Of a DNA stretch of 35,806 bases, positions 752-17,640 are shown piece after piece (position 1 is the first letter of the stretch; each line of letters opens with the position of its first letter). The position numbers and the translations under genes were made by a program. The stretch comes from a virus, in the IMG/VR virus record IMGVR_UViG_3300009156_000019, positions 1 through 35,806 of that record. The stretch is one strand, 5' to 3'. Below the pieces are notes generated by a model that saw only the letters and a list, made by a program, of their open reading frames with translations, was not told the DNA's origin and made no database searches.

Positions 752-760
752 GAGATTAAA

Positions 761-2350: not shown

Positions 2351-2672
2351 CGGATTCCGCTACCTCACTCATTGATCGGGGTTGGTGAGTTTGAGCTTGG
2401 AAAGCTGAACGGTTCTCCCATTTTCGCTTCTCAAGAAATTCTTTGATGTCCTTTTCGAGGAAGTTCGAATCTTGCATGAAAGCGTCGAAATATTCTTTCT
2501 GCCCATTGCGCTTGATTCCAACTGTCGCAACACTCCAGAATTTACCTCCATTCTTGGCTTCTTTTCTCACGTAAGCAACTCGGTATTTCCCATCCAAACA
2601 CAAGTAAACAAGCTCTTTTGTGTACTCATCTTCAGGAAAACTATCGTGGCTAATAAATTCAATCTTTGACAT
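2334..2672 (-). CDS. Small ssDNA-binding-like protein with SSB-type C-terminal tail
   Basis: A 112-aa protein with alternating beta-strand-like segments in residues 15-75, a polar linker, and a C-terminus reading ESDDLPF. Bacterial SSB proteins end in a nearly identical acidic tip (DDDIPF), the docking site for many replication and repair enzymes. The N-terminal part does not look like standard SSB, so this is either a diverged OB-fold SSB or another protein that mimics the SSB tail. A strong AGGAGG ribosome binding site precedes the start. It lies between the initiator-like gene and the RusA resolvase, which fits a role in replication or recombination. Confidence 0.7.
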   Translation of the reverse strand: MSKIEFISHDSFPEDEYTKELVYLCLDGKYRVAYVRKEAKNGGKFWSVATVGIKRNGQKEYFDAFMQDSNFLEKDIKEFLEKRKWENRSAFQAQTHQPRSMSEVAESDDLPF

Positions 2673-2744
2673 AATTCCTCCGAATTTAAATTTTATTTAT
2701 CACTTCTAACCCATTTCCACAAGGGAAAAAAGGCTATTCTTTTT

Positions 2745-3719: not shown

Positions 3720-3802
3720 AGCGTCCCGTAAATAAGTTGATCTCATATTTCGGGTATGCTAGACTGAGAGGTACCAAGATCCCGGTGTAGCACACCAATT
3801 CT

Positions 3803-3838
3803 AAAACGTCTGGCCGACGAAACCAGACGTTTTTTTTT
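3803..3838 (-). terminator. Strong bidirectional rho-independent terminator
   Basis: An 11-bp perfect stem pairs AAAACGTCTGG (3803-3813) with CCAGACGTTTT (3823-3833). On the plus strand it runs into eight T residues, and on the minus strand into TTTT. It lies just after the stop of the leftward gene at 3872 and before the initiator-like gene, so it would end the leftward regulator transcript. A small palindrome GGTGTAGCACACC sits at 3784-3796. Confidence 0.85.
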
Positions 3839-3871
3839 GTCACAATAACACGGTTTAAGTAATCTTTACAA

Positions 3872-4183
3872 TTAACTTCCGTGTAATTCCCAACAAAACT
3901 TCCTCTCCCTTCGATCGTAAGAGCCCGTGTAAGTGTTAGGACGAAGAGCGATAAGATCCCCGCCAATGTCAGTTGTGACAAGAAGTTTCTTCGATTCCAG
4001 GAAAGAGAAAATAGTCTTAAAGTAACTGGGGCTATTGTTTTCGTCGTAAAGAATGAGATCAGTTTCCAATATCGATTCGCAGATATCACGCATGAGGTCA
4101 TAGCAAACAAAGCCATAGTTTTTAATCCTTACTGAGCAAAGGGTACATAATGGGGACGGGTCTTCATTACACATCGGTTTCAC
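3872..4183 (-). CDS. Small winged-helix-like hypothetical protein
   Basis: A 103-aa protein with Cys residues near the start and a C-terminal segment YFKTIFSFLESKKLLV followed by a short hairpin-like stretch. This resembles the recognition helix and wing of a winged-helix fold. It overlaps the upstream gene by 17 bases and is followed by a strong terminator. The same register (F..L..L....LL, then a wing) appears in the upstream gene and in the initiator-like protein, so the three may be related. Function unknown. Confidence 0.65.
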   Translation of the reverse strand: MKPMCNEDPSPLCTLCSVRIKNYGFVCYDLMRDICESILETDLILYDENNSPSYFKTIFSFLESKKLLVTTDIGGDLIALRPNTYTGSYDRRERKFCWELHGS

Positions 4184-4451
4184 TTGGGAAAAGGTTGATT
4201 ACAAAAAAACCTTCCGTCTCTTCAAAGGTGAGAAGATCTAGCCTGCTGAGCGCAAGCAAGTGATTGCGGAATAAAGTCGGGGAAATCAAAAAGAATGACT
4301 TGATGTCAGTCCTTTTGACAGAGTAACTTTTTGCTTTTGGAATTAAAGAATGCAGGTCAGTGTAGAGTAATGCCGCCTCTGGTGCACTACGAAGAACAAG
4401 CTTGAATTTTTGTATCGGGGGGAAATCGGCATAACTGGACATATTCCTCAA
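4167..4451 (-). CDS. Small winged-helix-like hypothetical protein
   Basis: A 94-aa protein. The segment LFRNHLLALSRLDLLTFEETEGFFVINLFP (broken here only for description: residues about 60-89) has the helix-turn and wing pattern of winged-helix proteins. It lies directly downstream of the Cro-like regulator in the leftward direction. A 30-base inverted repeat at 4517-4546 lies between the two genes. A DNA-binding or replication-accessory role is inferred only from this pattern and from context. Confidence 0.65.
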   Translation of the reverse strand: MRNMSSYADFPPIQKFKLVLRSAPEAALLYTDLHSLIPKAKSYSVKRTDIKSFFLISPTLFRNHLLALSRLDLLTFEETEGFFVINLFPSETDV

Positions 4452-4516
4452 TTGAGTTGATTTTTTTCATCCCGAGGAATACAATCGTCCTGTTAGAAAA
4501 TTGTTTCTGTCCTCGA

Positions 4517-4546
4517 AGAGTATCTTGATTGGCGTCGGGATACTCT
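4517..4546. promoter_or_regulatory. Inverted repeat between leftward genes
   Basis: AGAGTATC (4517-4524) pairs with GATACTCT (4539-4546) around a 14-base loop. No T-run follows on the minus strand, so it is a weak candidate for an attenuator or terminator after the Cro-like gene. It could equally be an operator or an mRNA-stabilising hairpin in the leader of the next gene. Confidence 0.4.
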
Positions 4547-4559
4547 CCTTTTCATATAA

Positions 4560-4817
4560 TTAATTAATATTTTTTGACAACTTTTCTTTTGAGATGGTAG
4601 AATCTTTTTCCATTTCTTGCTTTTCTGCGTTCGGAATCCAATCATAGACTTTAACCTTTCCACCAGTCTGCTGCTCAATTCTCCATGCCATTAAAAGGCT
4701 AGGAATTGAATCACCCTTCATCAATCTCCCTAAATGCGTAGGTGTCGTTTCTATCTGATCGGCAAACCATGCCTGCGATCGTCTTATAGCTTCTAGGTAC
4801 TTTTTTAGCTTGTTCAT
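4560..4817 (-). CDS. Cro/CI-type HTH regulator
   Basis: An 85-aa protein with a helix-turn-helix of the XRE/Cro type: residues about 4-40 read as helix 1 (LKKYLEAIRRS), helix 2-3 (AWFADQIETTPTHLGRLMKG) and helix 4 (SLLMAWRIEQQTGGK). This resembles the small YdaS/Cro family. It is divergent from the rightward recombination operon and borders a palindromic operator region, the usual arrangement of a phage switch. The C-terminal 20 residues are polar and probably disordered. No longer CI-like partner with a peptidase domain is present, so whether it supports lysogeny is unclear. Confidence 0.85.
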   Translation of the reverse strand: MNKLKKYLEAIRRSQAWFADQIETTPTHLGRLMKGDSIPSLLMAWRIEQQTGGKVKVYDWIPNAEKQEMEKDSTISKEKLSKNIN

Positions 4818-4859
4818 GCGTTAATCTATTCATCCATGTTTATTTTTCATAACGTTAGA

Positions 4860-4877
4860 TGTTGACATAAATCAACA
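4860..4877. promoter_or_regulatory. Palindromic operator candidate
   Basis: TGTTGACATAAATCAACA has perfect 6-base arms (TGTTGA/TCAACA) around CATAAA and overlaps the -35 box of the rightward promoter. A near-identical half site, TGTTGACCTAAA on the minus strand, covers the leftward -35 box at 4916-4927 (11 of 12 bases match). The adjacent Cro-like protein is the obvious candidate ligand. Confidence 0.6.
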
Positions 4878-4891
4878 CCGAGTGATATATT
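4862..4891 (+). promoter_or_regulatory. Rightward promoter for the recombination operon
   Basis: TTGACA at 4862-4867 and TATATT at 4886-4891 with an 18-base spacer form a good sigma70-type promoter. It would start transcription near 4898 and drive the gene at 4942 and those beyond it. Confidence 0.65.
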
Positions 4892-4896
4892 TGGTA

Positions 4897-4925
4897 ATCA
4901 TAGACGGATACGCCGTTTAGGTCAA
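4897..4925 (-). promoter_or_regulatory. Leftward promoter for the Cro-like gene
   Basis: On the minus strand, TTGACC (4925-4920) and TATGAT (4902-4897) are separated by 17 bases. Transcription would start near 4890 and run through the operator palindrome towards the Cro-like gene, so the two promoters face and overlap each other. Confidence 0.6.
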
Positions 4926-4941
4926 CAAAAAGGACAGAAAC

Positions 4942-5133
4942 ATGAACGCCAAAGATGTTATCAAAAACCTAGAAACAATGAGTCAAGCACTTGAGAAGGT
5001 TGCTAACTCACCTCAGCATTATAACTCAGAATACGCGATTTATCTTGAAAGAATGAGTTGGGAGATGCACAAACAAGCCAATGATATTAGAGAGATCGAA
5101 TATTTATTTGACTTACCTTGTTTTGGAGGTTGA
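4942..5133 (+). CDS. Small hypothetical early protein
   Basis: A 63-aa helical, charged protein of unknown function, the first gene of the rightward operon. Its leader AAAAAGGACAGAAAC is close to the leaders of the ERF gene (5460) and of the gene at 33066. The next gene begins three bases after its stop. Proteins in this position in other phages are often regulators or host-interaction factors, but nothing in the sequence identifies it. Confidence 0.7.
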   Translation: MNAKDVIKNLETMSQALEKVANSPQHYNSEYAIYLERMSWEMHKQANDIREIEYLFDLPCFGG

Positions 5134-5135
5134 TT

Positions 5136-5324
5136 ATGCAAGCTTACTGGAGCCAATTTAGCCACGCCGAGATCATGTCGATGCACGGTGTAGAAGTAGA
5201 TGAAGTCGATTATGACACAGATTCGTATCACGATGATGTTGACACAGATTTGTCACAAGAAGAAGAGGGATGTTGTTCTGGTTGTATGGATTGCTTAGGT
5301 TTATCCTGGAGCGACTTTATGTAA
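5136..5324 (+). CDS. Acidic small protein with CCxxCxxC cluster
   Basis: A 62-aa protein started at the ATG at 5136, which has a GGAGG site 6 bases upstream; an in-frame start at 5118 lies upstream of that site. The middle is extremely acidic (VDEVDYDTDSYHDDVDTD) and is followed by a GCCSGCMDC cluster that could bind a metal. The acidic stretch could mimic DNA. It ends just before a hairpin terminator. Confidence 0.7.
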   Translation: MQAYWSQFSHAEIMSMHGVEVDEVDYDTDSYHDDVDTDLSQEEEGCCSGCMDCLGLSWSDFM

Positions 5325-5329
5325 AGATT

Positions 5330-5359
5330 ACTGGAGTGGCCTTGCCCTTCCACTCCAGT
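5330..5359 (+). terminator. Hairpin terminator after the first two rightward genes
   Basis: ACTGGAGTGG (5330-5339) pairs perfectly over 10 bp with CCACTCCAGT (5350-5359) around a 10-base loop, followed by the pyrimidine-rich TCTCTCTATTC. It begins 5 bases after a stop codon and before the 100-base leader of the ERF gene, so readthrough or a second promoter must serve the ERF operon. The gene-free stretch 5360-5459 holds AT-rich possible -10 sequences (TATATATT at about 5412) but no convincing -35. Confidence 0.7.
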
Positions 5360-5459
5360 TCTCTCTATTCAACCAAACTAAAGGAATGTATGAAAAAACT
5401 GCTCAGTCCCCTATATATTTAATTATTGAAATAACAACAACAAAAAAAGGATAGAAACA

Positions 5460-6194
5460 ATGAACCCAACGCCAAATTTATTGCCTGAGATGAGTGAAAA
5501 ATTCGATATGGTCTTAAAGCAAATGATGCTTGCTAAGAGAGAAATCGGCTCATCGGTTAAAAAAGACGCCTCTAATCCATTTCATAAATCCAGATACGCA
5601 ACTTTAGGCGCTCACCTTGAGCTAACCGAAGCTACATTAGACAAATATGGATTGATTTTGCTTCAAACAGTGAACGGATCTCATGATAAAGCTGTTTTAG
5701 TGGCTACACTTTGCCATGCGGAAAGTGGTCAGTGGATCAAATCTTATTTACCTCTTCCTAATCCCAAAAGCGATAGCCAAGGTTTGGGAGCTGCAATTAC
5801 GTATATGAGACGTTATTCGATAAGCTCAATGCTTGGGTTGAATGCCGAAGACGATGATGGGGAAACAGCTTCAGGCCGCGGCAAGCATGATGACTATAAA
5901 AAAGAACAAAAAGCCGTTAATCAAGCTCCCCCTATGGCAGCCGCTAAGGTTACAAGTATTTCCCCAAATAATCCTAAAATTGGGCCACAGCAAACCGCTA
6001 ATTTGAAAAATATCGAGGCGAGACTTAGTGCGAATTACAAAACTAAGCTTTACGACTGGATGAAAAAAGCTTATGAAGTGAGCTCTATTGAAAATCTAAC
6101 CGTGGACATTTACCCAAAAGTGCTTGAAGCGTTTACAAACGCCTCTAAACTGGTAGAAGCTCCACAGCAACAAAGGGAACTGGCTCATGCGTAA
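5460..6194 (+). CDS. erf: ERF-family single-strand annealing protein
   Basis: A 244-aa protein whose first 140 residues follow the ERF superfamily: helix MVLKQMMLAKREIG, then DASNPFHKSRYATLG, the strand-rich region to WIKSYLPLP, and the hallmark SQGLGAAITYMRRYSISSMLGL with an acidic stretch after it. ERF proteins (P22 Erf type) form rings, anneal complementary ssDNA and circularise or recombine phage DNA. The C-terminal 100 residues are a polar linker and a helical domain. The stop overlaps the start of the exonuclease by 8 bases; an annealing protein plus a 5'-3' exonuclease is the standard two-component phage recombination system. Confidence 0.93.
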   Translation: MNPTPNLLPEMSEKFDMVLKQMMLAKREIGSSVKKDASNPFHKSRYATLGAHLELTEATLDKYGLILLQTVNGSHDKAVLVATLCHAESGQWIKSYLPLPNPKSDSQGLGAAITYMRRYSISSMLGLNAEDDDGETASGRGKHDDYKKEQKAVNQAPPMAAAKVTSISPNNPKIGPQQTANLKNIEARLSANYKTKLYDWMKKAYEVSSIENLTVDIYPKVLEAFTNASKLVEAPQQQRELAHA

Positions 6195-7041
6195 GGTACA
6201 TTTCGAACAAGGATCACCCGAATGGTTAAACTGGAGAAAAGGACTGCTGACCGCGACAGACGCGGCAGCTCTCCTGGGTAAATCCAAATATGCAACGCCT
6301 CATCTACTATGGCAAAGAAAAACAGGCCAAGCGCCTGAGCAAGCTGTCAATTCGGCGATGCTGCGCGGGCAAAGAGATGAGCCCGTAGCTAGAGCTCTTT
6401 TTATAAAAGAGTATGGAATTCCAATGGAACCTGCTTGCGTTGAGAGTGACATTCCTTACATCGGAGCTTCTTTGGATGGTCTTAGCCCCTGCGGAAAATA
6501 TCTCCTTGAGATCAAATCTCAAAGACCTGTTTCAGAAGTTCCAGAAATGCACTGGATTCAGATGCAACACCAATTTATTTCTAACGATGGAAGAGTTGAA
6601 AAAGGATACTACGTCAGTCATTGGGAAGGAGTAAATACCACCTTTGAAGTCTATCCCGATCTAGAATGGAAAAAGGATTATCTACCTAAAGCCAAGGAAT
6701 TCTGGGAGATGATAGTTTTCAAAGAGCCACCTGCTCTTATAGCGGGTGATTATTTTGATATGACAGACCAAGGATCATGGAATGAGCATGCTTACCAGTA
6801 TGTCACCTTGAGCAGAAGAATCAAAGAGCTTGAAGAGCTGAAAGACTCCTACAGAAAAGAGTTGATTAAGATGTGTGGAGACAAAAATTGCGCAGGAAAA
6901 GGCATAAAAATCCTAAAGAAGTACAGCAAAGGACGTATTGATTACAAAGAAGTTGTTGAGGTCATGAATGTAAATTTTGATGAGTCACATTTTAGGAAAG
7001 CTCCTACCTCAACATGGACAATTATGCTGGATCAAAATTAA
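6187..7041 (+). CDS. YqaJ-type (lambda Exo-like) exonuclease
   Basis: A 284-aa PD-(D/E)XK nuclease. The N-terminal GSPEWLNWRKGLLTATDAA matches the G..EW...R....TAS signature. E65 in RDEPVAR, D97 in GASLDGL and E108-x-K110 in LLEIKSQ form the catalytic motif, followed by a Q-rich helix (HWIQMQHQF, about 122-130). Such enzymes resect dsDNA ends processively 5' to 3' and hand the strand to the annealing protein encoded immediately upstream with an 8-base overlap. The last 80 residues form a helical, coiled-coil-like extension. The full catalytic set is present, so it is probably active. Confidence 0.93.
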   Translation: MRKVHFEQGSPEWLNWRKGLLTATDAAALLGKSKYATPHLLWQRKTGQAPEQAVNSAMLRGQRDEPVARALFIKEYGIPMEPACVESDIPYIGASLDGLSPCGKYLLEIKSQRPVSEVPEMHWIQMQHQFISNDGRVEKGYYVSHWEGVNTTFEVYPDLEWKKDYLPKAKEFWEMIVFKEPPALIAGDYFDMTDQGSWNEHAYQYVTLSRRIKELEELKDSYRKELIKMCGDKNCAGKGIKILKKYSKGRIDYKEVVEVMNVNFDESHFRKAPTSTWTIMLDQN

Positions 7042-7074
7042 ACTTAACGGCATTTTGAGGGAAAAGGAGGTTAT

Positions 7075-7248
7075 ATGAAGCCTATCATTATGACAATCAT
7101 TATAACAATCATCCTGACAGGGTGTACATACTCGATCACGATGGTGCATACTGAAGGTCAAGCGACTGATGTCGTAGATGAAACAGCCACTAACACCCCG
7201 AGTACCTCAGTGACTCCAACAGTTACTATACCCGCGGGAGCGATTTAG
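7075..7248 (+). CDS. Small lipoprotein
   Basis: A 57-aa protein, MKPIIMTII...ILTGC, with a hydrophobic signal of about 14 residues and a clear lipobox L-T-G-C with Cys17, so it should be lipidated and anchored in a membrane of a Gram-negative cell. The mature part is short, polar and rich in Thr, Val and Pro. A strong GGAGG site precedes the ATG. The TAG stop overlaps the GTG start of the glycosyltransferase (TAGTG). It may be a superinfection-exclusion or envelope-modifying factor, or a spanin-like subunit, though no partner spanin is visible. Confidence 0.75.
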   Translation: MKPIIMTIIITIILTGCTYSITMVHTEGQATDVVDETATNTPSTSVTPTVTIPAGAI

Positions 7249-8069
7249 TGGTTTGGTTAAGTTTAATTCTATTGTGGCTAGCTCCCTTCTCTGCAATGGC
7301 GAAGGAATATGAGCTAGCCGCATGTGCCATATTTCAAAATGAAGATCGATTCCTCGATGAATGGATCTCATACCATAAGAGTCATGGAGTTGAACATTTC
7401 TGGCTTTACAACAACAATTCCACTGACAATTATCTGGAGGTTTTGCAACCTTACCTGAAAACTGGATTAGTAGAGCTCATTGATTGGCCAAGTAGTCCAG
7501 TAACCAACGAATGGGAAAACTTCTCCTTCAATGTCCAAGTGAAGGCTTATACTGACGCCATCCATCGGGCAAAGAATAAAACAAAGTGGCTAGCCATCAT
7601 CGATACCGACGAATTCATCGTCCCTATTCAAGTAGATCATCATAAGAAGACCCTTAGCATCCGCGCTATTCTAAAGAATCATCATAATGATAGCGCAATC
7701 GCTCTCCAATGGGCTTGTTTTGGAACTTCTGGAATTGACTATGTTGAACCAGGAAAAATGCTCCAATCGCTTGTATTGCGTCTTCCTCTTGATCATCCAA
7801 GAAACGGATGGAGTAAAACCATTGTAAAGCCGCTTTACATTGAATCGTGTGAAAACCCTCACTTTTGCAACCTTAGAGAGGGAAAATGTGTGGTTTTGTC
7901 ACATGAAGAGGCAAGACTTAATCACTATTGGGCAAGAGATGAGTTGTTTTTGCACTCAGTGAAAGTGCCAAGATATGTAAAATGGGGAGGTAAAGAAGAG
8001 GATATCTTGAATGATGCCGCCCAAATGAATCAGGTCTACGATGATTCGATCAAATGGGGCCCTTATTAG
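7248..8069 (+). CDS. Secreted GT92-like glycosyltransferase
   Basis: A 273-aa protein beginning at GTG. Residues 1-18 (VWLSLILLWLAPFSAMA) form a signal peptide with an A-M-A cleavage site. The rest follows glycosyltransferase family 92 (GT-A fold): ACAIFQNEDRFLDEWISYH (25-43), YNNNSTD (54-60), the metal-binding WLAIIDTDEF (D119-x-D121), a WACFGTSG block, and a C-terminal NHYW typical of the family. GT92 enzymes transfer sugars from nucleotide-sugar donors. Export past the cytoplasm is unusual for such an enzyme, because donors are cytosolic. It is coupled to the lipoprotein gene and ends in a hairpin, forming a tail-end cassette that could alter host surface glycans. Confidence 0.85.
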   Translation: MVWLSLILLWLAPFSAMAKEYELAACAIFQNEDRFLDEWISYHKSHGVEHFWLYNNNSTDNYLEVLQPYLKTGLVELIDWPSSPVTNEWENFSFNVQVKAYTDAIHRAKNKTKWLAIIDTDEFIVPIQVDHHKKTLSIRAILKNHHNDSAIALQWACFGTSGIDYVEPGKMLQSLVLRLPLDHPRNGWSKTIVKPLYIESCENPHFCNLREGKCVVLSHEEARLNHYWARDELFLHSVKVPRYVKWGGKEEDILNDAAQMNQVYDDSIKWGPY

Positions 8070-8075
8070 GGGCCC
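8057..8075. terminator. Hairpin between convergent operons
   Basis: GGGCCC (8057-8062) pairs with GGGCCC (8070-8075) around a 7-base loop that contains the glycosyltransferase stop codon. It lies between two converging genes (ends at 8069 and 8084), where a bidirectional terminator is expected. No T-run follows, so efficiency is uncertain. Confidence 0.5.
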
Positions 8076-8083
8076 TATCCATT

Positions 8084-8836
8084 TCAGATTAAAACTTCTT
8101 GGCCGCTGCGATAGGTGAAAGTTGGAGTTCCAGTTGTGTTTGCGGTTCGAATTCTAACCCAATATCCAGCAGGAACATAACCGTTTAGTCCACCTGTGAC
8201 GTTTTGAGATAGATTAAGTCCAATAGTTAAAGTACCTGTGTTTCCATTTACAAATCTACAAAGCTCTTGAACTCCTGTTGTAAAAGCGGAGTTTGTAGCG
8301 ATCTCAAGAAAAACCGTACCCGTTTGGCCAGTTGTCAAGTTAAGCGTACAAGCGATATCCACTGAGTAATTCACTAAAGAATCTCGAGTAGTGCTCACTT
8401 GATAAGCTGTATTTAAGGATCTGGATGCTGATGACTGAGATCTGACAGCCGCAACCCCAGAATCTGAAAGTAATTGACCAGTAGTGGAATTGAAAGAGGA
8501 GATGTTTCCTACTGCCGCAGAAGATGGCCCTTTGATATTTCCGAAAACCCCGCCTGCTGTTGGCCAAGAAAGAGCGGTCGCGGGATCGACTGTCGCACTG
8601 CCAAGATCGGCAGTAACTGACCCAGCAACCGCGTCTTTTGCGGCTTGATCTGGTGCGGCATCCCATGCGGCCAAGTAAAATGCAATCCGTCCTTGAGCTC
8701 TTAAATACCTAGTCAAAATGGTATACATTTTGGTTTGGTTATTGGTAAAAACAGCTTCAAAAGCTTGATAGTTATCTGGGAAAACCAGAGGATAAAACGT
8801 GGAATTTAGAGCGGCAATAAATTGGTCTCTATTCAT
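8084..8836 (-). CDS. Tail fibre or receptor-binding protein
   Basis: A 250-aa protein, the last gene of the leftward virion operon. Residues 1-90 form a mostly helical head (MNRDQFIAALNSTFYPLVF). Residues 85-130 carry a shaft-like stretch ending SFNSTTGQLLSDSG. Residues 135-250 form a beta-rich domain beginning SASRSLNTAYQVSTTRDSLVNYSVDIA and ending WVRIRTANTTGTPTFTYRSGQEVLI. That C-terminal domain is familiar from phage and prophage tail-fibre tips, where it probably contacts the host surface. A GGAGG site precedes the start. Confidence 0.75.
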   Translation of the reverse strand: MNRDQFIAALNSTFYPLVFPDNYQAFEAVFTNNQTKMYTILTRYLRAQGRIAFYLAAWDAAPDQAAKDAVAGSVTADLGSATVDPATALSWPTAGGVFGNIKGPSSAAVGNISSFNSTTGQLLSDSGVAAVRSQSSASRSLNTAYQVSTTRDSLVNYSVDIACTLNLTTGQTGTVFLEIATNSAFTTGVQELCRFVNGNTGTLTIGLNLSQNVTGGLNGYVPAGYWVRIRTANTTGTPTFTYRSGQEVLI

Positions 8837-8847
8837 AAATTCCCTCC

Positions 8848-9897
8848 TTAGGAATATTGAATTTGCATTCTACCCGTCGTTGACATTGTAGTTCCCAAGC
8901 CAACTGTATTATTATTCAAGTAAGCGCCAGCGGCAGCATTGGTAAATGGAAAAATTACGGTATTGTTTCCTAGAGCAAGCGTACTAATTTGATAAAGCGT
9001 AATTGCTCCTGCTTGATCAAAAGCCCCTGGCCCTTGAAGACCGCCATCGTTAGAGTTAAAAGGCATACTTTGCCCTAGAGTAACCACTCCTGTACCTGCG
9101 GTACTACAGTTAACAAATGCTTGATAGTATTCGATCTTGTTATCCATGAAGATATAGTATACAAACCCTGAAGTAGTAAACGCAGGAGCCACACCACCGT
9201 TATTTTGGAAGTATTTTCCTGAAGCATTACCAAATTGTCCTGGTGGCATTGCAAATTGTACACCTTCTTGAAATTGCCCCACCCCGTCGGTATTCCCAAT
9301 TGTTTGAACTGTCCAGTCATCAGAAGTACTCATTCGCATTCTAAAAGAACCGATGCTTAAACAAGGATTTGAGTCATAGCTTGTGACTGTGATATTAGCT
9401 AATGAGAAGAAAGATCCTTGGGTATCTGCTATAGCTGATCCCACTTTTCCGATCTTGGTATTTACTGGAGACGTTGAAGCATTTGGATATCGAGAGATCA
9501 TGAAAGCGATTAAAGTCTCAGTGTCATCCATTACAGCGTAAAGAAAAAATGGCATATCTACTGCAACAGCGATACCAGTCGTAACCCCAAAAAGGTTACC
9601 TATGATCTGGGATGATCCGTTATCATCGATAAAGGTTTGGTTGGCTGTGATTTGGAATTTAAGATACTTCCCAGGGACAGACTTACTAGGCAAAACAACA
9701 TAGCCTGGATTTGTCGCAGAAAGGGCATTGCCATCACCCCCTTGGACGGTGAAAGTCCCAGATCCTGAAGCGTACGCAATCCCCAAATTCTCTACATAGT
9801 CACCCTTAAGGCGTACACGATTTGCCCATTGAAACGTGCCACCACTTGCTATTTCAAAGTCATTATTGCTTCCATTGACTGCATTTGCAAAAGGCAT
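8848..9897 (-). CDS. Putative tail or fibre structural protein
   Basis: A 349-aa protein rich in Gly, Ser, Thr, Asn and aromatic residues with a beta-structure pattern throughout and no enzyme motif. The start reads MPFANAVNGSNNDFEIASGG and the end GRMQIQYS. It lies between two fibre-like genes in the minus-strand tail cassette, separated by 9-11 bases with good ribosome binding sites. Its role as a virion surface or fibre component is inferred from position and composition; I do not recognise the family. Confidence 0.65.
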   Translation of the reverse strand: MPFANAVNGSNNDFEIASGGTFQWANRVRLKGDYVENLGIAYASGSGTFTVQGGDGNALSATNPGYVVLPSKSVPGKYLKFQITANQTFIDDNGSSQIIGNLFGVTTGIAVAVDMPFFLYAVMDDTETLIAFMISRYPNASTSPVNTKIGKVGSAIADTQGSFFSLANITVTSYDSNPCLSIGSFRMRMSTSDDWTVQTIGNTDGVGQFQEGVQFAMPPGQFGNASGKYFQNNGGVAPAFTTSGFVYYIFMDNKIEYYQAFVNCSTAGTGVVTLGQSMPFNSNDGGLQGPGAFDQAGAITLYQISTLALGNNTVIFPFTNAAAGAYLNNNTVGLGTTMSTTGRMQIQYS

Positions 9898-9906
9898 ATT
9901 TACTCC

Positions 9907-11712
9907 TTAAGTTACGTTCCAATTTCCTTCAATGCCGACGGCCCACCAATCATTAGTCGATGCCTGGTATCGAAGGGTTAAAGAATCACCTGTTCCCGTG
10001 CTAGTGAATGCACCTGCTACAGAAGTCGCCTGGTTTCCAATGTGACCCACTTGAGTTGCTGCCATTTGGACAACTAAAACGCCGTTTGTAGCAACGAATT
10101 TCACTAAATCCCCATCGAGTAATCCCGCAGTAACTGGAGTGGTTAAAGTGATTGCGTTCGTTGCGAATGATCCCGAGTTAAGAGTGACCGAAGTTGTAGA
10201 AGCTTGATCAGCAAAAGGAGGTGATAAGATTGTGACTGTGTTGCCAGTTGCTGAAGTTTTGCTTCCTGATCTTCCTAAGACATTCAAAATTCCTGCCGCT
10301 GGAGTCGCGTTCCCTGAATCGGCATTGAATTGAATTGGCACTGAGCCTGTCGCACTGACAAATCCATTAGCATCGACGGTAAATTGAGCTGAGTTAAAGG
10401 CTGCTAAACCCACATTCGACGCATTGGTCGATGCAATGGCTTGAGCTCTTTGAACGTTGACGGTAACTGTACTGCCTGATGCCGCTGTCGCTACGGGTGT
10501 AGTTCCCGCAGCTACAGCAGCCCCCAAGATATTAATATTATTAGCGGCAGGGGCAGCCGTTCCCGTATTTCCAGTATACTGAGTCGCAATTGTGGCGGCT
10601 AAGGTGACAAAGCCGTTAGCATCGGCTGAAAACTGAGCGCTACTAAAGTGAGCCACGCCGTTTCGAGAGGCTGCCGTTGTCGCGTTTGTAGAGGTTCTCT
10701 GAATCTGGAGGGAAATTGTATTGGCTGCCAAGCTAAAAGCTCTTATAGAGCTTGCAATTGTGTTTGCTGTAGCTTGGGCACCTGTCATAGAAATTTGTCC
10801 TGCAAGGGGGACAACTGGGTTTGTTCCTGGAGCTGTATTACCATCGACTAAAACTGAAAGGATAGGGCTAATCGCCAATCCGACAAATCCGTTGCCGTCC
10901 ACTGTAAAAATCGAGGAGTTAAAGGCAGCAAGTCCAACGTTTGCGGCATTGGTTGATGCAATGGCTTGAGATCTTTGAACTTCCAATTGCATCGTATTGG
11001 CGCCAGTTCCATTTGTCCTGACAGGATTAGTCCCCGCGGCAACGGCCGATCCATTGAATGTGACCAAGCCCGCTCCATCTGGAACCACAGGACTTGTTCC
11101 CGTTTGCATAGCTATAGAATCAATCGCCGCCCCTGCTCCCACTAACGAAACATATCCGTTCGCGTCCACGGTAAACTCGGCCGAATTAAAGTGGGCTACC
11201 CCGTTGGCGGCTACCGTCGAAACCGCTTGAGCGGAGCTTCTTTGGATTTCGATAGTGTAGCTATTGGCTGCGACTGAATTTGTACGGATGACATTTGCCC
11301 CAACGGTTCCTGCTGCTACCTGACCACCTGTCACAGTCACAATACCTAGTCCGTTTGGGACTACTGGGTCGGTTCCTGGAGGTGTAGAAGCGTCCACATT
11401 GAAAGACTCAGTAACGGCGCCACCGATCAAGGAAACGAAACCGTTGGCGTCGACTGAGAAAAAGGCTGAGTCAAATGCGGCTAAGCCGACATTAAGTGCG
11501 TTTGTTGAAGCTATGGCTTGGGAAATTTGGGCTTGAATAGTGAGAGTGTTGCCCGATCCCACAGTTTGCAAAGGAACTATTCCCGCGGGAACCGTTTCAC
11601 CTAAGACTTCTAAGACGTTAGCGATGGGAATGGCAAATCCGACATTAGCGTCGAATCTTGTGGGAATTTCTGGATGATTCCCTTCAATATCAATGATGGA
11701 TACTTGGCTCAA
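9907..11712 (-). CDS. Large repetitive tail fibre protein
   Basis: A 601-aa protein with a short non-repetitive head, five degenerate repeats and a distinct C-terminal domain of about 110 residues (from about 492, ending DWWAVGIEGNWNVT). Each repeat ends in a block like FNSAQFTVDANGFVSL, with cores at about residues 88, 183, 272, 364 and 447, a period of 83-95 residues. Between the cores lies a strand-rich segment with VVP, VAAGT and IQRS motifs. This is the design of trimeric beta-structured fibre shafts in tailed phages. The C-terminal domain is the likely tip or trimerisation unit. It overlaps the upstream coiled-coil gene by 4 bases. Confidence 0.8.
   Translation of the reverse strand: MSQVSIIDIEGNHPEIPTRFDANVGFAIPIANVLEVLGETVPAGIVPLQTVGSGNTLTIQAQISQAIASTNALNVGLAAFDSAFFSVDANGFVSLIGGAVTESFNVDASTPPGTDPVVPNGLGIVTVTGGQVAAGTVGANVIRTNSVAANSYTIEIQRSSAQAVSTVAANGVAHFNSAEFTVDANGYVSLVGAGAAIDSIAMQTGTSPVVPDGAGLVTFNGSAVAAGTNPVRTNGTGANTMQLEVQRSQAIASTNAANVGLAAFNSSIFTVDGNGFVGLAISPILSVLVDGNTAPGTNPVVPLAGQISMTGAQATANTIASSIRAFSLAANTISLQIQRTSTNATTAASRNGVAHFSSAQFSADANGFVTLAATIATQYTGNTGTAAPAANNINILGAAVAAGTTPVATAASGSTVTVNVQRAQAIASTNASNVGLAAFNSAQFTVDANGFVSATGSVPIQFNADSGNATPAAGILNVLGRSGSKTSATGNTVTILSPPFADQASTTSVTLNSGSFATNAITLTTPVTAGLLDGDLVKFVATNGVLVVQMAATQVGHIGNQATSVAGAFTSTGTGDSLTLRYQASTNDWWAVGIEGNWNVT
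10348..11517 (-). repeat. Five tandem coding repeats of about 83-95 codons
   Basis: The repeats lie within the 601-aa fibre gene. Repeats 1, 3 and 5 share AIASTNAxNVGLAAFNS; repeats 2 and 4 share the variant NGVAHFxSAxF. So the units alternate in two subtypes (A-B-A-B-A), suggesting duplication of a two-unit block. Each carries VDANGF or a close variant. Confidence 0.8.
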
Positions 11713-12383
11713 GGAATCACCTCCGCTTTTTTCATTCTTCCGATCATGGTGTAAATATTTTCTATCTTTTTCTCTGTAACCATTACAGCGCGAGACAGCA
11801 AACGAATCTCGCGGATAATCCCAGCGGCATCGATGTTGTGAATATTAATCTTTTCTTCAAGCTCTTTCTTGATCGCTTGAGTATCGGTAGGTAAGGCGAC
11901 GATTTCAGCTTTGGTTTTATCTGACTCTTTATAAATTTTTCTTTCCAAATTGTCCATAGCTGACATGATGGAATTAAGATTTTCTTTATTAGTGGCACTT
12001 AACTTATCTATTCTATCAGTAATAGCAACAAATAAACCAAAATTCTTTACATTGTCATTTCTTAAATCGGAATTATTTAATTTGTTTTCTTGAAGGCTTA
12101 ATAATGTACTATTATTTATATCTAACTGATCATTTCTAAATGCGGTATGGGATTTATCTAGTAGGCTCATGAAAGAAGCGTGGCTAGATAGCGCTGATTT
12201 GATCGCCAAAATCTCGGAATGTAAAGCGGCTTTACTTTCAGCGCAATCGCGCTTGACTGAAGCGATTTCTTCTTTCAAATCCCTGATCGATTGAAGAACA
12301 GTATTCAGCGAATTTTGATAATTCTTGATTTCCTGTTGAACTATCAGCTCAAATTGCTTAGCCAAGTCGCGACGATTTAACAT
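11709..12383 (-). CDS. Coiled-coil tail-associated protein
   Basis: 224 aa from the ATG at 12383, which makes a TAATG junction with the upstream stop; a start at 12395 would add four residues. The whole chain is heptad-rich helix (QSIRDLKEEIASVKRDCAESKAALHSEI, broken for description; further coils at about 120-170 and 180-215) without other motifs. It sits between a small virion protein and the large fibre, so it may be a fibre-connecting or chaperone-like rod. Its AT-rich middle (about 11990-12140) contrasts with the GC-richer fibre genes around it. Confidence 0.65.
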   Translation of the reverse strand: MLNRRDLAKQFELIVQQEIKNYQNSLNTVLQSIRDLKEEIASVKRDCAESKAALHSEILAIKSALSSHASFMSLLDKSHTAFRNDQLDINNSTLLSLQENKLNNSDLRNDNVKNFGLFVAITDRIDKLSATNKENLNSIMSAMDNLERKIYKESDKTKAEIVALPTDTQAIKKELEEKINIHNIDAAGIIREIRLLSRAVMVTEKKIENIYTMIGRMKKAEVIP

Positions 12384-12718
12384 TAGTGCATACACTCAAC
12401 ATAGACATCTCCTGACGTTGGAGCTGTCACCTGTTTTACATAGAACTGAGTCCCCACGGGGAACACATATTTATCATCGAATTGCGGATTGATGTTAGCT
12501 TGTACGTCATAAAGCTTATAGCTGCCTGCGGCAACAAACATGTCTCCTGCTGCATTCGTTGGGTCAAGTGAAAAAATCATATGACCTTGAGTGTTATTGG
12601 TAATGCAGAATACGCGGATAGGATGGTCAGTTGGTGTGCCAACTGCCGCATAAGCCGCAGAGATTCCAGCAAATCCCAAACTACGTAAGGGTTCAAAAAA
12701 TGCTCTAGACTGACTCAT
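12383..12718 (-). CDS. Small virion-associated protein
   Basis: 111 aa from the ATG at 12718, which follows a GGAGG site; an upstream in-frame start at 12754 lacks one. The protein begins MSQSRAFFEPLRSLGFAGIS and continues as a beta sandwich with a PVGTQFYVKQ strand near its end. Similar short proteins (RxFYEPLRSL at the start, LPxGTxxYVKQ near the end) occur with N4-gp56-type capsids in other podoviruses, probably as head or neck components. Its function is not established. The stop forms TAATG with the next gene. Confidence 0.7.
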   Translation of the reverse strand: MSQSRAFFEPLRSLGFAGISAAYAAVGTPTDHPIRVFCITNNTQGHMIFSLDPTNAAGDMFVAAGSYKLYDVQANINPQFDDKYVFPVGTQFYVKQVTAPTSGDVYVECMH

Positions 12719-12956
12719 TTGCCTCCTGTGGAGCCGCGCAGTCTTGCCCTTCACAGGGTTGAGCCGCCTGCTCTTCTTGTTGTTTCATTGCTTCTTGCTG
12801 CGCTACCTGTTCCTTGTGAGCTTGAACCATACGCTCTACCATTAATCCCTTGACTAGCATCAAGAAATCATGAAAAAGGCCGATAGGCATCTCATTTTCA
12901 ACTAGGATTTGTGCTTGGCCGCATGCGCTTTTGAATAACTGTGTTGGTTTTTGCAT
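12705..12956 (-). CDS. Small hypothetical virion-region protein
   Basis: An 83-aa protein with an N-terminal helical domain (residues 20-50) and a Gln/Glu-rich tail (EQVAQQEAMKQQEEQAAQ) predicted as coiled coil or disordered. It sits in the tail cassette and overlaps the next gene by 14 bases. A small assembly factor is possible; nothing more can be said. Confidence 0.6.
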   Translation of the reverse strand: MQKPTQLFKSACGQAQILVENEMPIGLFHDFLMLVKGLMVERMVQAHKEQVAQQEAMKQQEEQAAQPCEGQDCAAPQEANESV

Positions 12957-12976
12957 TTCTTTTTTCCTTTGTTTTT

Positions 12977-13702
12977 TTAGTTAACGATTTCCCACGCAAT
13001 AACAGAAACGTCAGAAGCCTGAAGTGCTGTTGCGTCTGCCGCTTGAACAGCGTTGATCACAAATGAAACACCTGCTGTTTTAGTCCCAAGAGTTACATGA
13101 CCGAGGGCCGCGGCTCCTGTAGCTCCAATGCCTTGACGATATAGCCTAATTTGCGATGCTGCGGTGACTGCTGTGGTAGAAACTGTGGCTGTACCTCCAG
13201 TTAAAGTTACTGTACCCGCCGAGTTAGCTCCTGCGGCAGTTGTAGTGGCCACGCTAGAGTAAACATCCTTGTTTCCAGCAGTTCCACGGACAATATTTCC
13301 GTTTGTTGCTGTGATATTTCCTAAAGTAGCTGTAAGAGTGGTTCCAGCCGTAATTGTCGATGTAGCGGATAAAGTTGTAAAAGTTCCTGCGGCAGGTGTC
13401 CCAGAGCCGATTGCTGGTGGAGAGGCGAATCTTGTAGCTAACTTCAAAGGAGAAACGATTCTAGTATCATCTGTCCCCGTATTAACCTCCGCTTGAGTTG
13501 CTATCTCAGCAATCCCAGCTACTGTTTCGCTTGCGGCAGGTAAAAGAGTAGAAATAGCCAAAGCAAGTGTTGCTGGGCTAATATAAAGTTGTTGAGAAAC
13601 TCCCGCGGCTACTTCAGCGGCGTTAGCTGCTCTAACATCGCCAGTCCAGTGCTGATTGGACTGCTTACCAGTGTAAGAATTTGGACGTGCAAATTTAGGC
13701 AT
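12977..13702 (-). CDS. Tail fibre-like protein
   Basis: 241 aa from the ATG at 13702 (MPKFARPNSYTGK), which has a GGGGG site upstream; a start at 13720 adds six residues. The segment SETVAGIAEIATQAEVNTGTDDTRIVSPLKLA near residues 58-89 (described in parts: ETVAGIAEIAT, then TGTDDTRIVSP) is a well known phage tail-fibre repeat. The rest is Thr/Ala/Gly-rich beta repeat typical of a shaft. It is the first gene of the tail cassette after the inserted plus-strand island. Confidence 0.75.
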   Translation of the reverse strand: MPKFARPNSYTGKQSNQHWTGDVRAANAAEVAAGVSQQLYISPATLALAISTLLPAASETVAGIAEIATQAEVNTGTDDTRIVSPLKLATRFASPPAIGSGTPAAGTFTTLSATSTITAGTTLTATLGNITATNGNIVRGTAGNKDVYSSVATTTAAGANSAGTVTLTGGTATVSTTAVTAASQIRLYRQGIGATGAAALGHVTLGTKTAGVSFVINAVQAADATALQASDVSVIAWEIVN

Positions 13703-13774
13703 TTTAACCCCCTGTTTCATGCGTTAAATTCAAATTTAAACATGTCACTTGGATCCAACAAAAGCAAGCATTCG

Positions 13775-13803
13775 TTGACAGGAAAGTTAAAATCTTGAAT
13801 AAT
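13775..13803 (+). promoter_or_regulatory. Promoter of the plus-strand island
   Basis: TTGACA at 13775-13780 and AATAAT at 13798-13803 with the ideal 17-base spacer. It lies in the 120-base gap between the leftward fibre gene and the rightward island, so the island can be expressed apart from the late operon. Confidence 0.7.
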
Positions 13804-13822
13804 TGAATAAGAAGAGGTTGAG

Positions 13823-14128
13823 ATGTCGAATTATGCCAATGTAATCATGATCCGCAACGAGTCAGGTAAAGACGTGCTGTTTAGGCCTGTAGATGAAAGA
13901 TTCGACTATTTAACTAAGTTAGTTAAAGCAGATCATTATATTATATTTGAGCCTCATTTAGCTGGTTTTTTAATTGATATGGATCAAACTTACTTCCAGT
14001 TTGTAAATAAAAAAAGAAAGATAAAACCTCATAAAGTAGGCAAGTACGGTATTAAACTGGAGTTTATCGATGAAACAAAAAAGCGCACATGTTACGACGA
14101 CGTTTCAGCTAAGCACAACCTTGCATGA
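13823..14128 (+). CDS. Hypothetical island protein, 101 aa
   Basis: An unrecognised protein with alternating strand-like segments (YANVIMIRNES, DVLFRPVDERF) and a Lys-rich middle (NKKRKIKPHKVGKYG). An AGAGG site precedes the start, and the strong island promoter lies 20 bases upstream. Its last 59 bases overlap the ribbon-helix-helix gene in another frame. It is the first gene of an island inserted between late genes, so it could be a regulator or moron product; no function is assigned. Confidence 0.65.
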   Translation: MSNYANVIMIRNESGKDVLFRPVDERFDYLTKLVKADHYIIFEPHLAGFLIDMDQTYFQFVNKKRKIKPHKVGKYGIKLEFIDETKKRTCYDDVSAKHNLA

Positions 14129-14243
14129 GCAATTGAAATTAATGTGCTTGCTTACTCATCGATCAATGGGTGAGTTTATTCGTATAGCTTTGATCGATAA
14201 AATGAAAGAGTTAAAGGTGGCAAATCCAAATGGAAAACCTTGA
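14070..14243 (+). CDS. Ribbon-helix-helix (Arc/Mnt-like) DNA-binding protein
   Basis: A 57-aa protein. It has a short strand HVTTTFQLS (residues 7-15), helix A TLHEQLKLMCLLTHR (16-31) and helix B GEFIRIALIDKMKEL (34-48), with a Ser-Met turn at the helix B cap. This is the pattern of ribbon-helix-helix repressors such as Arc (53 aa) and CopG. A GGAG site lies 7 bases upstream. The gene is between the last ejection protein and the tail-fibre genes, the location of Arc and Mnt in P22. It overlaps the preceding gene by 59 bases and the next by 14. It probably autoregulates the island promoter. Confidence 0.75.
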   Translation: MKQKSAHVTTTFQLSTTLHEQLKLMCLLTHRSMGEFIRIALIDKMKELKVANPNGKP

Positions 14244-14547
14244 AGAAGTTCTGTGGGCAATCCACAATCTGATTGAAAAGCTTCCTGTAATGATCTGTGA
14301 TGAACTTGAGAAAAGATCCGCATTGCAAAAAGATCAGGAAGACAAAGAGAGAAAAGCTAGACTTGAAGCGGATATGGACTTCTTAAGAGAGCATAACGCA
14401 GAAATTAATAAGTTGATGTATGGATTATGTGCTCCTGTTAAGGTGGAAGCGGATAATCCTGAAGAACAACACATTGCTGATCAATTGGAAAAAATGTACA
14501 ACGCAGTTTATACGGAGTGTAAAGAATGCAATGGGAACAAGTCCTAA
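14230..14547 (+). CDS. Coiled-coil hypothetical protein
   Basis: A 105-aa protein that is nearly all helix, with a strongly charged coiled coil (KRSALQKDQEDKERKARLE, residues 29-47) and Cys residues at the end (TECKECNGNKS). The ribosome binding site AAAGGTGG lies inside the preceding gene. It overlaps the next gene by 22 bases. Unrecognised; part of the plus-strand island. Confidence 0.65.
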   Translation: MENLEEVLWAIHNLIEKLPVMICDELEKRSALQKDQEDKERKARLEADMDFLREHNAEINKLMYGLCAPVKVEADNPEEQHIADQLEKMYNAVYTECKECNGNKS

Positions 14548-14711
14548 CAATCATCGCCGCTAACGTGGGAATGATCCTATGGAATGCAAGAGAGCGTAGA
14601 ACCGACTTTCTTCATACCATGAAGGTCATTGATGAGATTAAAAAAGAAACAAAAGACTTCCATGGTCGCCTATGCACCATTGAAGAAAAACATAAGCAGG
14701 CTAAAAAATGA
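14526..14711 (+). CDS. Small membrane-anchored coiled-coil protein
   Basis: A 61-aa protein. Residues 5-20 (QVLTIIAANVGMILWN) are a probable membrane or amphipathic segment, followed by a charged helix ending KKETKDFHGRLCTIEEKHK. Small phage proteins with this ending (E-K-D-F-H-G-R-L-C-x-I-E-E) recur near lysis or late regions of podoviruses, but their function is not established. It could be a holin-like or membrane-tethering factor. Confidence 0.65.
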   Translation: MQWEQVLTIIAANVGMILWNARERRTDFLHTMKVIDEIKKETKDFHGRLCTIEEKHKQAKK

Positions 14712-14776
14712 TCCAATTTATAGGCGCCATGATACTTTGCGTCTTTTGCATGTTGCTAACGGCTATCACTGAGTGA
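14708..14776 (+). CDS. Possible 22-aa membrane peptide
   Basis: A very short ORF, MIQFIGAMILCVFCMLLTAITE, almost wholly one transmembrane helix. It starts inside the last codons of the preceding gene (4-base overlap), and its end overlaps the tail of the convergent ejection gene by 11 bases. A membrane peptide of this size could act in lysis timing or be a chance ORF; the coupling and composition favour a real product, weakly. Confidence 0.35.
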   Translation: MIQFIGAMILCVFCMLLTAITE

Positions 14777-16385
14777 TTTCTTCTGTCAAGAACTCCCATT
14801 TTTCATTGGGATGCTTTCTTTGCATGTATTCCTTCACCTGATTGACGATAGTTTTTGTGCCTTGCAAAGATCCTTGATTCATATTCTTAACCAATTTAGT
14901 TCCGATATTTTGGAAATAAGGATTGATAAGCATCTCTCGGGCCATTATGCGTAATGCTGTCTCTGTTCCAAGGCCAGCAAGCGCCCATGGATTACCGTTT
15001 GCAAGAGCAAGAGTAGCTGGGACATATCCCACAAGCTCCGCTTTGTTTAAGAAGGCATCCACGATGTCAGGCTTTAACTTTTTAGATATAGCCGCGTATT
15101 TTGAGTATAACTGATTGGTTAGGTCGAAATCTTTAGCTAATGTAGGAGAAATCTTCTCAAGAACATCTGAGATAGGAGCCTTGAGCCTAGATAAAGCTTT
15201 TTTACCTCCTCCAATCTTGTTCCAATCGACAGTGCGATTGACATCCTGCCAGAAGTTCACAAGGTACTCTGGAGTGATCTCAACCTCGCGAAGGTTGGTT
15301 AATGCCTTTTCAATGTAGTCAATGGCTGCTTGCTTCTCGGCTGAGGGTGAAAGAGTGCGTGTAAGATCATTGCGGATATCGCCGAATTCCTTACGTAATG
15401 CAATCTGTTGCTCACGTGGAAGCTTGTTTTTAGCTACAGGAGAACTCTTGATTGTGTCGTATGAGTCTCCTAGTTTTTGTTTTATCTTTCCAAAAAGCTC
15501 TTTGCTTCGTTCGCTTTTCTTTGCAAATGGCGCTAGTGTCGCTGTCTTTCGTGGACTTTGAATTAATGGAGTGATTTCCGACTCTGCAAGACCTAGTTTT
15601 CTAGCTCCTTCAATGAGCTTATTAGTTTCTTTGCCTGCTTTTGTGACGCTTTGAGGGTTTAACTTTCCTTGAATTGCTGAAGTAGCCAATGGCCCTCCAA
15701 TTTCAAGAGCTGTCGCTAACGCTTCAGGCCCTCCAGATTCTCGGATTCCTTGAGCTCCAGAATTAGAAGCTAAAAGCCCAAGAGCTCCTTTAAGTCCGCT
15801 TCCTGTGGCTATTCCTTCTCCTACCGCGCCAGCTCCATGTCCCGCTATTCTACCCGCTGGAGTTCTACCTTCTCCCACTCCAGTCACTTGTTGAATTTTG
15901 CCTTCAACTTCCTTAGATGTAGGTAATCGAGCCGATCTAGGGCCAAATTCATCATCATCGGAAAGAAGCATAAGCTCACCAAAAGACGGGGCTTCTCCAC
16001 GGTTCATTTTTTCTAGGATATCAGATTGTACCCCGTAAATAGCTTCTTGCCCTGGGAGTAGTTGGCCTTCTGGAACTTGAAGACCAAAAGCGTCGAGAAT
16101 ATTTCCATAAGCTCCCGCGATTCCAGCAGCCCCCTTTTTAAGGACTTGTTGCCCTATGTCTTTAGCCGTATCCCAGAAATCAAACTTGTCTTCTTTTTTC
16201 TTTTCATTTTGAGCAGCAAATCGTTGAAAAATATTTCCCTCGGGCTTTACTTCCTCGGCTACCTCTAAGGTAAATGGTGTCTCAGCCTGAGTTGGCTCAG
16301 GTTTGGGAGTAGAATTAGAAAAAGCGTCAGAAGTTCTTTCTTGCGCCCTTTTTTGGAAAATATTCATGTTATTCATCGATTGCAT
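14766..16385 (-). CDS. DNA ejection protein (P22 gp16-like position)
   Basis: A 539-aa protein, third and longest of three consecutive putative ejection proteins. Its N-terminus is polar and Pro/Glu-rich. Residues 85-100 and 180-260 are Gly/Ala-rich (KKGAAGIAGAYGNIL, AGHGAGAVGEGIATGSGLKG) as in proteins that insert into membranes during genome entry. The C-terminal half is helical. In P22, gp7, gp20 and gp16 leave the virion and form a conduit through the envelope; order and rising length match here. Alternative Met codons at 16376 and 16367 are possible starts; the upstream stop is at 16369. Similarity to gp16 itself is not visible by eye. Confidence 0.7.
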   Translation of the reverse strand: MQSMNNMNIFQKRAQERTSDAFSNSTPKPEPTQAETPFTLEVAEEVKPEGNIFQRFAAQNEKKKEDKFDFWDTAKDIGQQVLKKGAAGIAGAYGNILDAFGLQVPEGQLLPGQEAIYGVQSDILEKMNRGEAPSFGELMLLSDDDEFGPRSARLPTSKEVEGKIQQVTGVGEGRTPAGRIAGHGAGAVGEGIATGSGLKGALGLLASNSGAQGIRESGGPEALATALEIGGPLATSAIQGKLNPQSVTKAGKETNKLIEGARKLGLAESEITPLIQSPRKTATLAPFAKKSERSKELFGKIKQKLGDSYDTIKSSPVAKNKLPREQQIALRKEFGDIRNDLTRTLSPSAEKQAAIDYIEKALTNLREVEITPEYLVNFWQDVNRTVDWNKIGGGKKALSRLKAPISDVLEKISPTLAKDFDLTNQLYSKYAAISKKLKPDIVDAFLNKAELVGYVPATLALANGNPWALAGLGTETALRIMAREMLINPYFQNIGTKLVKNMNQGSLQGTKTIVNQVKEYMQRKHPNEKWEFLTEEITQ

Positions 16386-17640
16386 ATCCTAGTTTTCTGG
16401 CTTCAGCTAAGGCTTTATCAGGATCATTACCAAAGGTCATCAGAAGAGCATCTACCATATAGGGAGAAATCTGAGTTCCTTGTGCAACTTTATGGAATTT
16501 CTGCGGCTTATCTTCACCGATCGCTTTTATCGCTCTCAAATCGTTAAAGAGTTGCTCTTGCTTGTCTTCAGCATACTTAGATAATCTATCTTTAACTCGA
16601 CCTCCAAGACTACGATAATTGCCCCCTTCACGTTCAATTTCATCGGCAATCTCATTGGTGACACGCACTCTTTCCTCTTCAATATCTAATTCATTTTGAA
16701 GAGCTCTTGCTACAGATAAGTTAGCTTCAGGTGTACGGCCGATCTTAGTTAACATATCGGAGATCTGCTGCTCAATCCATTGGTTAGGGCGCGCGCCTGC
16801 TCTCGCTAAGCTTCCCAAGAAATATTCTTTTGCCGCTGTTTTAAATAGCGCGCCTTCTGGAGATCTAAAAGCTTCAACCCCTGACAATTCAGCTAAGTTA
16901 TCCCATGTCCAGAAAGAAAGATCTTTACTCGCGATCGCGTCCACCATTGTTCTTAAGGCAGATCGCTTTTGGGGTAATGTTTCAGCAATTTCGTCAGTCC
17001 TTTCAAGAACTTTTTTGCCAATATCTTGACCGAATTTAGTGCGATTTTCATCTTTTCTTTGCTCAACATTTCTTTCCTCCTGCCTTCTTTTTAACTCTTG
17101 TTTAGCAGGTTCGGAAAATCCTTTCACACCACTCAATTGCACTAACTGATCATCGGATAAACCTCTCCAAGAAACAGGGCCTGTTTGCTCCCCTTGTGGC
17201 CCTTGTTGCCCTTGAGGTGATTGACCTGCGGCTAATCCCCCAGCAATTTGAGCTGGATTTGCGTTGACGCCCATTCCACCAATGATTGAGTTTGCTCTAT
17301 TATCTAGAAGCTGATTTTCATATTGAACTTTCTGAAGACCTTCTGGTAAATCTGGGTTTATACCAACAGATTCTGCGGCGGATCGCCTTTTATTTTCTTG
17401 CTGTTTCGACTGAAGATTATTGTAAGCATTTTGGATATACTGCACCGCAGCGCCTTGTCGCTCAGGGGAAACCTGTGAAAGGATCTTGCTAATGCTATTT
17501 TGCAATACGGCGGGATCTTGGGAATTCATCGCCCCAGAAAGAATGCTTTCAATTGCGTTCTCATCTCTAGTTTGACGAAATCCTTGGCCTAAATTGTTTC
17601 CAATTTGCTGAGCTACTAAAAACGGTAATGGTGCTGACAT
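16369..17640 (-). CDS. DNA ejection protein (P22 gp20-like position)
   Basis: A 423-aa, mostly helical, Gln- and charge-rich protein. Residues 1-60 (SAPLPFLVAQQIGNNLG) are followed by a Gly/Gln-rich flexible stretch near 130-160 (QSPQGQQGPQGEQTGP) and a long helical C-terminal region with repeated charged helices. The composition and position between the 193-aa and 539-aa proteins match the middle ejection protein of P22-like phages (gp20, 471 aa). Start codon is preceded by a GGAG site. Confidence 0.7.
   Translation of the reverse strand: MSAPLPFLVAQQIGNNLGQGFRQTRDENAIESILSGAMNSQDPAVLQNSISKILSQVSPERQGAAVQYIQNAYNNLQSKQQENKRRSAAESVGINPDLPEGLQKVQYENQLLDNRANSIIGGMGVNANPAQIAGGLAAGQSPQGQQGPQGEQTGPVSWRGLSDDQLVQLSGVKGFSEPAKQELKRRQEERNVEQRKDENRTKFGQDIGKKVLERTDEIAETLPQKRSALRTMVDAIASKDLSFWTWDNLAELSGVEAFRSPEGALFKTAAKEYFLGSLARAGARPNQWIEQQISDMLTKIGRTPEANLSVARALQNELDIEEERVRVTNEIADEIEREGGNYRSLGGRVKDRLSKYAEDKQEQLFNDLRAIKAIGEDKPQKFHKVAQGTQISPYMVDALLMTFGNDPDKALAEARKLGYAIDE

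Follow-up and report, generated by a model that had tools for sequence, protein, structure and literature searches.

A predicted ribbon-helix-helix gene as the constant element of a variable island beside the fibre gene in a group of uncultured phages

The window analysed here is a whole virus record of 35,806 bases with 42% G+C, whose minus strand carries the genes for terminase, portal and major head protein and whose plus strand carries the Erf-like and RecE-like recombination genes. Its leftward late genes are broken by a rightward unit at 13775-14776, which raises the question of what a unit read against both of its neighbours does at this place. The original prediction was that it is a functional analogue of the immunity I (immI) region of phage P22, built around a small ribbon-helix-helix (RHH) protein; all elements described for the unit were found in place.

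A direct repeat of 123 nt occupies both ends of the window (1-123 and 35684-35806), and the record therefore probably represents a full circular map, that is, a circularly closed phage genome of ~35.7 kb. The best terminase relatives in the annotated phage collection share 33-35% identity with it, and tblastn against annotated phages gave no match for the portal, 539-aa or RHH proteins. The phage had been called unrelated-looking; this holds in part, the Erf-like annealing protein making it not wholly unlike P22. One of the 52 window genes aligned matches glycosyltransferase family 92 (E 1.3e-32). Close terminase relatives in genome assemblies are on phage-sized contigs and not inside chromosomes. 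A terminase-profile scan of one genome collection found MAG contigs labelled Bacteroidales, Gammaproteobacteria, Verrucomicrobia and Planctomycetaceae, labels too mixed to assign a host; an order-level search around the gammaproteobacterial MAG yielded nothing further, and an initial guess of a chlamydial host was supported by no tool. A relative of the terminase large subunit (TerL) with 38% identity, lower than for the MAG contigs, lies on a 313-kb bacterial contig of Yersinia similis (L117, NZ_CGBP01000002.1), perhaps in a prophage, and a relative of the RHH protein was not found in that genome.

The features of the window on which the analysis is built are the following:

12977-13720, minus strand: fibre or appendage gene, divergent from the island, with a match to a tail collar fibre PHROG and a K1-lyase C-terminal domain
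13721-13822, no strand: divergent control region of ~100 nt separating the fibre gene from the island; in most relatives the fibre and RHH genes are 75-125 nt apart
13775-13803, plus strand: promoter TTGACA-17-AATAAT, with TTGACA at 13775 and AATAAT ending at 13803
13795-13810, plus strand: putative RHH operator TTGAATAATTGAATAA, composed of two direct boxes of 8 bp and lying across the -10 and start region
13823-14128, plus strand: first gene, 101-aa protein, with related proteins in G001 and the L113 contig only
14070-14243, plus strand: 57-aa protein, predicted RHH, the constant element of the locus
14230-14547, plus strand: 105-aa charged protein, cargo, with relatives in G001 and, partly, in G027
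14526-14711, plus strand: 61-aa protein with a hydrophobic N-terminal stretch and a KDFHGRLC-x-IEE motif, from a widespread mobile family
14708-14776, plus strand: 22-aa hydrophobic peptide, its ORF sharing 11 nt with the 3' end of the 539-aa gene that converges on it
14766-16385, minus strand: 539-aa late gene that runs towards the island and is ejection-like in its position only
28723-30222, minus strand: TerL, directly behind the RHH gene in type B (inverted) relatives
30222-30662, minus strand: 146-aa small-terminase-like gene in front of TerL, so named from its position and sequence features

The open reading frames of the island (101, 57, 105, 61 and 22 codons) are all on the plus strand and overlap head to tail. 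Coding is backed by stop-free conservation, in 28 contigs for the RHH gene, in at least 12 genomes for the 61-aa family, and in 2-3 close relatives for the 101- and 105-aa genes. The 22-aa peptide is the least secure part of the island, with positional support only: a 31-codon TM-like ORF is found at the equivalent place in G001. Between the window and G001, dN/dS is ~0.2 where computable, with dS near saturation (for the 105-aa protein, dN is 0.53 and dS 3.2). The 101-aa protein is predicted to adopt a mainly beta fold (AF2 pLDDT 80 from 3 sequences), and no meaningful fold match was obtained for the predicted structure; a paralogy with 31464-31670, first suspected by eye, was dropped. On the other side of the control region, comparison with relatives indicates that the fibre gene probably starts at 13702 (MPKFARPNSY) instead of 13720.

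The promoter ascribed to the island is one of three sites in the window that score at least 11/12, and when the 103-nt gap 13721-13823 is shuffled by dinucleotides, 0.15% of the shuffles contain a site of this quality by chance. An identical TTGACA-17-AATAAT is present in G001 and G010, and different 11/12 sites in L015 and L165. Among relatives in general the mean score is 9.5 of 12 versus 8.7 in shuffles, and many are individually not above shuffles. The 16-nt repeat TTGAATAATTGAATAA has its sole exact copy in the window here. With at most one mismatch it is found once per genome, at the same position, in G001, G002 and G019, and its conservation is limited to the close clade of the window. 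No copy was found at other promoters; since the repeat occurs once per genome, wider control of late genes through a genome-wide regulon is not supported. The AT-rich motif on the fibre side, GTTTAAATTT, is not common to other operons of the window. With a sar-like antisense RNA in mind, such as controls ant in immI, 13500-15000 was compared with Rfam and gave no match.

The 57-aa product had been described as a protein of Arc/Mnt size with a strand-helix-helix layout, and structure prediction agrees. An AlphaFold2 monomer model (pLDDT 88, from an alignment of 20 sequences) places helices at 16-29 and 33-51. The leading matches of this model in a Foldseek search of the PDB are RHH proteins (CopASO, ParD, Arc, MatP, PutA, CopG and AmrZ), with probabilities up to 0.99; their E-values of ~0.2 are attributed to the shortness of the chain. 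Sequence profiles give weaker matches, namely to the PHROG "Arc-like repressor" (E 0.004) and to the CopG/RHH_1 family (PF01402), which is the best Pfam match (E 0.006) yet at 17.0 bits remains below the curated cut-off of 20.5 bits, so that the protein is no member by Pfam's rule. An RHH fold is thus predicted for it.

Terminase and structural-protein searches of IMG/VR provided ~70 relatives, all of them metagenome contigs. The RHH gene was present without stops in 19 of the 40 records searched, many of the negatives being short fragments, and further searches extended the set to 28 distinct RHH contigs. The fibre gene lies divergently upstream of the RHH gene in all 28, or in 27 according to an automatic test; the 28th, G013, is a cut piece, with its fibre gene found in another piece. 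The gap between the two genes is mostly 75-125 nt, except in four contigs with one extra gene in between, and in the window the distance from the fibre gene to the first island gene is again ~100 nt. Profile search detected one RHH ORF per genome and no second RHH gene.

What follows the RHH gene is variable, the point on which a comparison of this locus across related phages had been suggested. One gene order is common to the window, G001 and the L113 contig: 101-aa gene, RHH gene, 105-aa gene or a piece resembling it, 61-aa gene and small hydrophobic ORF. Elsewhere the cargo comprises a single member or several members of the 61-aa family, small proteins with one transmembrane segment, many other small proteins, DUF29 and PD-(D/E)XK proteins, or HNH endonucleases (L105 and L110, equal to G021 and G031). 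In six relatives (G003, G005, G012, G019, G026 and L165) the RHH gene stands without any cargo. Its retention where cargo is gone argues that selection keeps the RHH gene and not the cargo. It is not indispensable, as G024 carries three zinc/HNH-like proteins at the place and no detectable RHH gene. In the distant G028 (L154:2885-3323), an HTH protein, Xis-like by eye, replaces the RHH gene beside a gene of the 61-aa family. HNH-endonuclease-type proteins recur at the fibre-flanking place, both as the cargo mentioned above and in L151:5471-7401. Members of the 61-aa family are 58-92 aa long, with a hydrophobic N-terminus and a KDFHGRLC-x-IEER or RIDQLYxMFVDLL motif, and look like small membrane-anchored proteins. 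Most genomes of the group contain them, but their places differ (L124:5359-5763, L149:12014-12205 and others), and some lie far from the RHH gene.

In some relatives the structural genes beside the island are rearranged. In the standard arrangement, a small-terminase-like gene of 120-220 aa precedes TerL. In six relatives (G006, G014, G017, G021, L015 and L018), TerL is instead the next large gene after the RHH gene, on the same strand, and the remaining structural genes follow in the same direction where the record is long enough. TerL overlaps the RHH gene in four of the six, while a small gene intervenes in G017 and an HNH gene in G021. A seventh relative, G010, has a further arrangement with the RHH gene 3.8 kb ahead of TerL. 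Type B genomes retain the small-terminase-like gene at another place. In G014 (L111), a 381-aa ORF between TerL and the portal gene encodes an N6/N4 DNA methylase.

The change can be followed between G016 (L108/L149, standard) and G017 (L136/L137, inverted), whose aligned DNA segments are 77-96% identical and which differ by a flip of ~16 kb. Positions 1-560 of G016 correspond directly to 31276-31835 of G017, 571-16537 are reversed, and from 17200 the correspondence is direct again. One breakpoint falls within the last ~10 nt of the RHH gene, near its stop codon; the second separates the small-terminase-like gene from TerL. Mapped onto the TerL tree, the trait requires no fewer than four changes, in whichever direction and likewise when starred branches only are counted, although exchange of TerL between phages could inflate this number. 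A constraint that joins the six RHH-TerL rows in a single clade is rejected, with an AU p far below 0.05. This tree was made by a quick method, and the group was defined after the arrangement had been seen. To our knowledge, repeated inversion of a whole structural block at the end of an RHH gene is unusual for tailed phages, and our paper searches gave no report of it.

Where TerL overlaps the end of the RHH gene, the RHH transcript is most likely the source of terminase mRNA, and the unit should therefore be usable late in infection. The RHH unit can thus probably drive late structural genes. The repeated inversions that put it ahead of the terminase point to a role tied to late and fibre transcription. 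A more far-reaching proposal is that a virion module of ~16 kb inverts recurrently with one end at the RHH gene, each flip taking terminase and the structural operon away from their own promoter and placing them under the autoregulated one of the RHH gene. Late genes would then be driven from different control regions in related phages, and this might act as a switch within populations. We consider this speculative and rather improbable.

How far the likeness to P22 extends can be judged feature by feature. As in immI, a gene of Arc/Mnt type by size and predicted fold (Foldseek match to 1par with probability 0.92) lies between the last ejection gene and the tailspike or fibre gene. The sequence link to Arc is weak, with 15% identity over the structural alignment and a different predicted operator. 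The ejection identity of the 539-aa product, asserted in the original prediction, fits its position but found no domain hit. Unlike immI, which has mnt and arc, the island contains a single RHH gene and no second repressor. The remark that no Ant-like antirepressor is visible was borne out, as the window cargo has no Pfam or PHROG match and no Ant-like family was recognised in the relatives' cargo. HMM searches of the window genes scanned found no integrase and no CI/C2-type or S24 repressor, the sole HTH match among the other genes being a weak one to HTH_3 (1e-4). By the defining features tested, the island is not of the immI class. An RHH protein that controls an antirepressor within a lysogeny or immunity system would agree with the size, place and PHROG match of the 57-aa protein; we regard it as unlikely, given the single RHH gene, the antirepressor, CI-type repressor and integrase that the scans did not find, and the phage-sized contigs of the close terminase relatives. 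What survives of the analogy is the predicted fold, promoter, position and variable cargo; an immunity function is not supported. The nearer comparison is with the ant moron of P22 (mnt, arc, ant, sar and sieA, between genes 16 and 9), which is likewise independently expressed and variable (PMC2629481). Among P22 relatives such morons come in "ten types in sixteen genomes". There the whole moron varies, whereas here the RHH gene is constant; also unlike the P22 moron, the whole island is antiparallel to both neighbours and the structural block inverts beside it.

The island has two features of a moron, a promoter of its own and contents that vary at one place among relatives, and its function could reside in the cargo. 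The RHH protein would then repress a cassette encoding small membrane proteins of 61 and 22 aa and other products that act on the host, for example in SieA-like superinfection exclusion. The spread and hydrophobic N-terminus of the 61-aa family speak for this, as does sieA, which sits at the matching place in P22 (PMC2629481). However, the RHH gene persists without cargo in the six relatives named, some 61-aa-family members are remote from it, and neither the cargo in PADLOC nor the tested 61-aa-family members in NCBIfam or PADLOC found a match. A defence or exclusion role of the cargo is unsupported, and we take this explanation as possible, though well short of probable. Resemblance of the fold to the ParD and CopASO antitoxins would suit a type II toxin-antitoxin pair, but the RHH gene has no constant partner, being alone in six relatives and accompanied by unrelated cargo in others, which argues against such a pair; moreover, a chain of 57 aa has little C-terminal tail with which to bind a toxin, and we consider the pair highly improbable. 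RHH proteins also include centromere binders, and the 57-aa protein might serve DNA metabolism (packaging or segregation, in the manner of ParG or Omega) rather than transcription. A ParB-type RHH among the Foldseek matches and the place ahead of TerL in type B would be in keeping with this role. The candidate sites, however, occur once and over a promoter, and type B genomes have not lost their small-terminase-like gene, so that we hold this role to be quite unlikely.

The computations directly give a predicted fold, sequence conservation, the divergence from the fibre gene, the turnover of cargo and the inversions placing the terminase behind the RHH gene. The best explanation of these, which we hold with medium confidence as a whole, is that the island encodes an autoregulated RHH protein controlling the divergent late/fibre region, with the 101-, 105-, 61- and 22-aa genes as exchangeable passengers of moron type. 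We infer that a dimer of the 57-aa protein would bind the TTGAATAA-TTGAATAA boxes that overlie the -10 region of its own promoter and, once bound, would repress its own unit and so limit its own transcription. From the shared divergent region of ~100 nt it may also determine how strongly or when the fibre gene is expressed. In the late phase the island unit would be active, or able to be active.

This group of uncultured phages would thus possess an equivalent of the P22 ant moron whose fixed part is the repressor and not the antirepressor. For P22 itself, the ant moron has been proposed to influence the level of tailspike, possibly via Mnt and Arc (PMC2629481). The old idea that RHH repressors at this place tune the supply of tailspike or fibre becomes testable across many natural variants, and the repeated inversion next to the RHH gene suggests that late transcription can start from the RHH unit.
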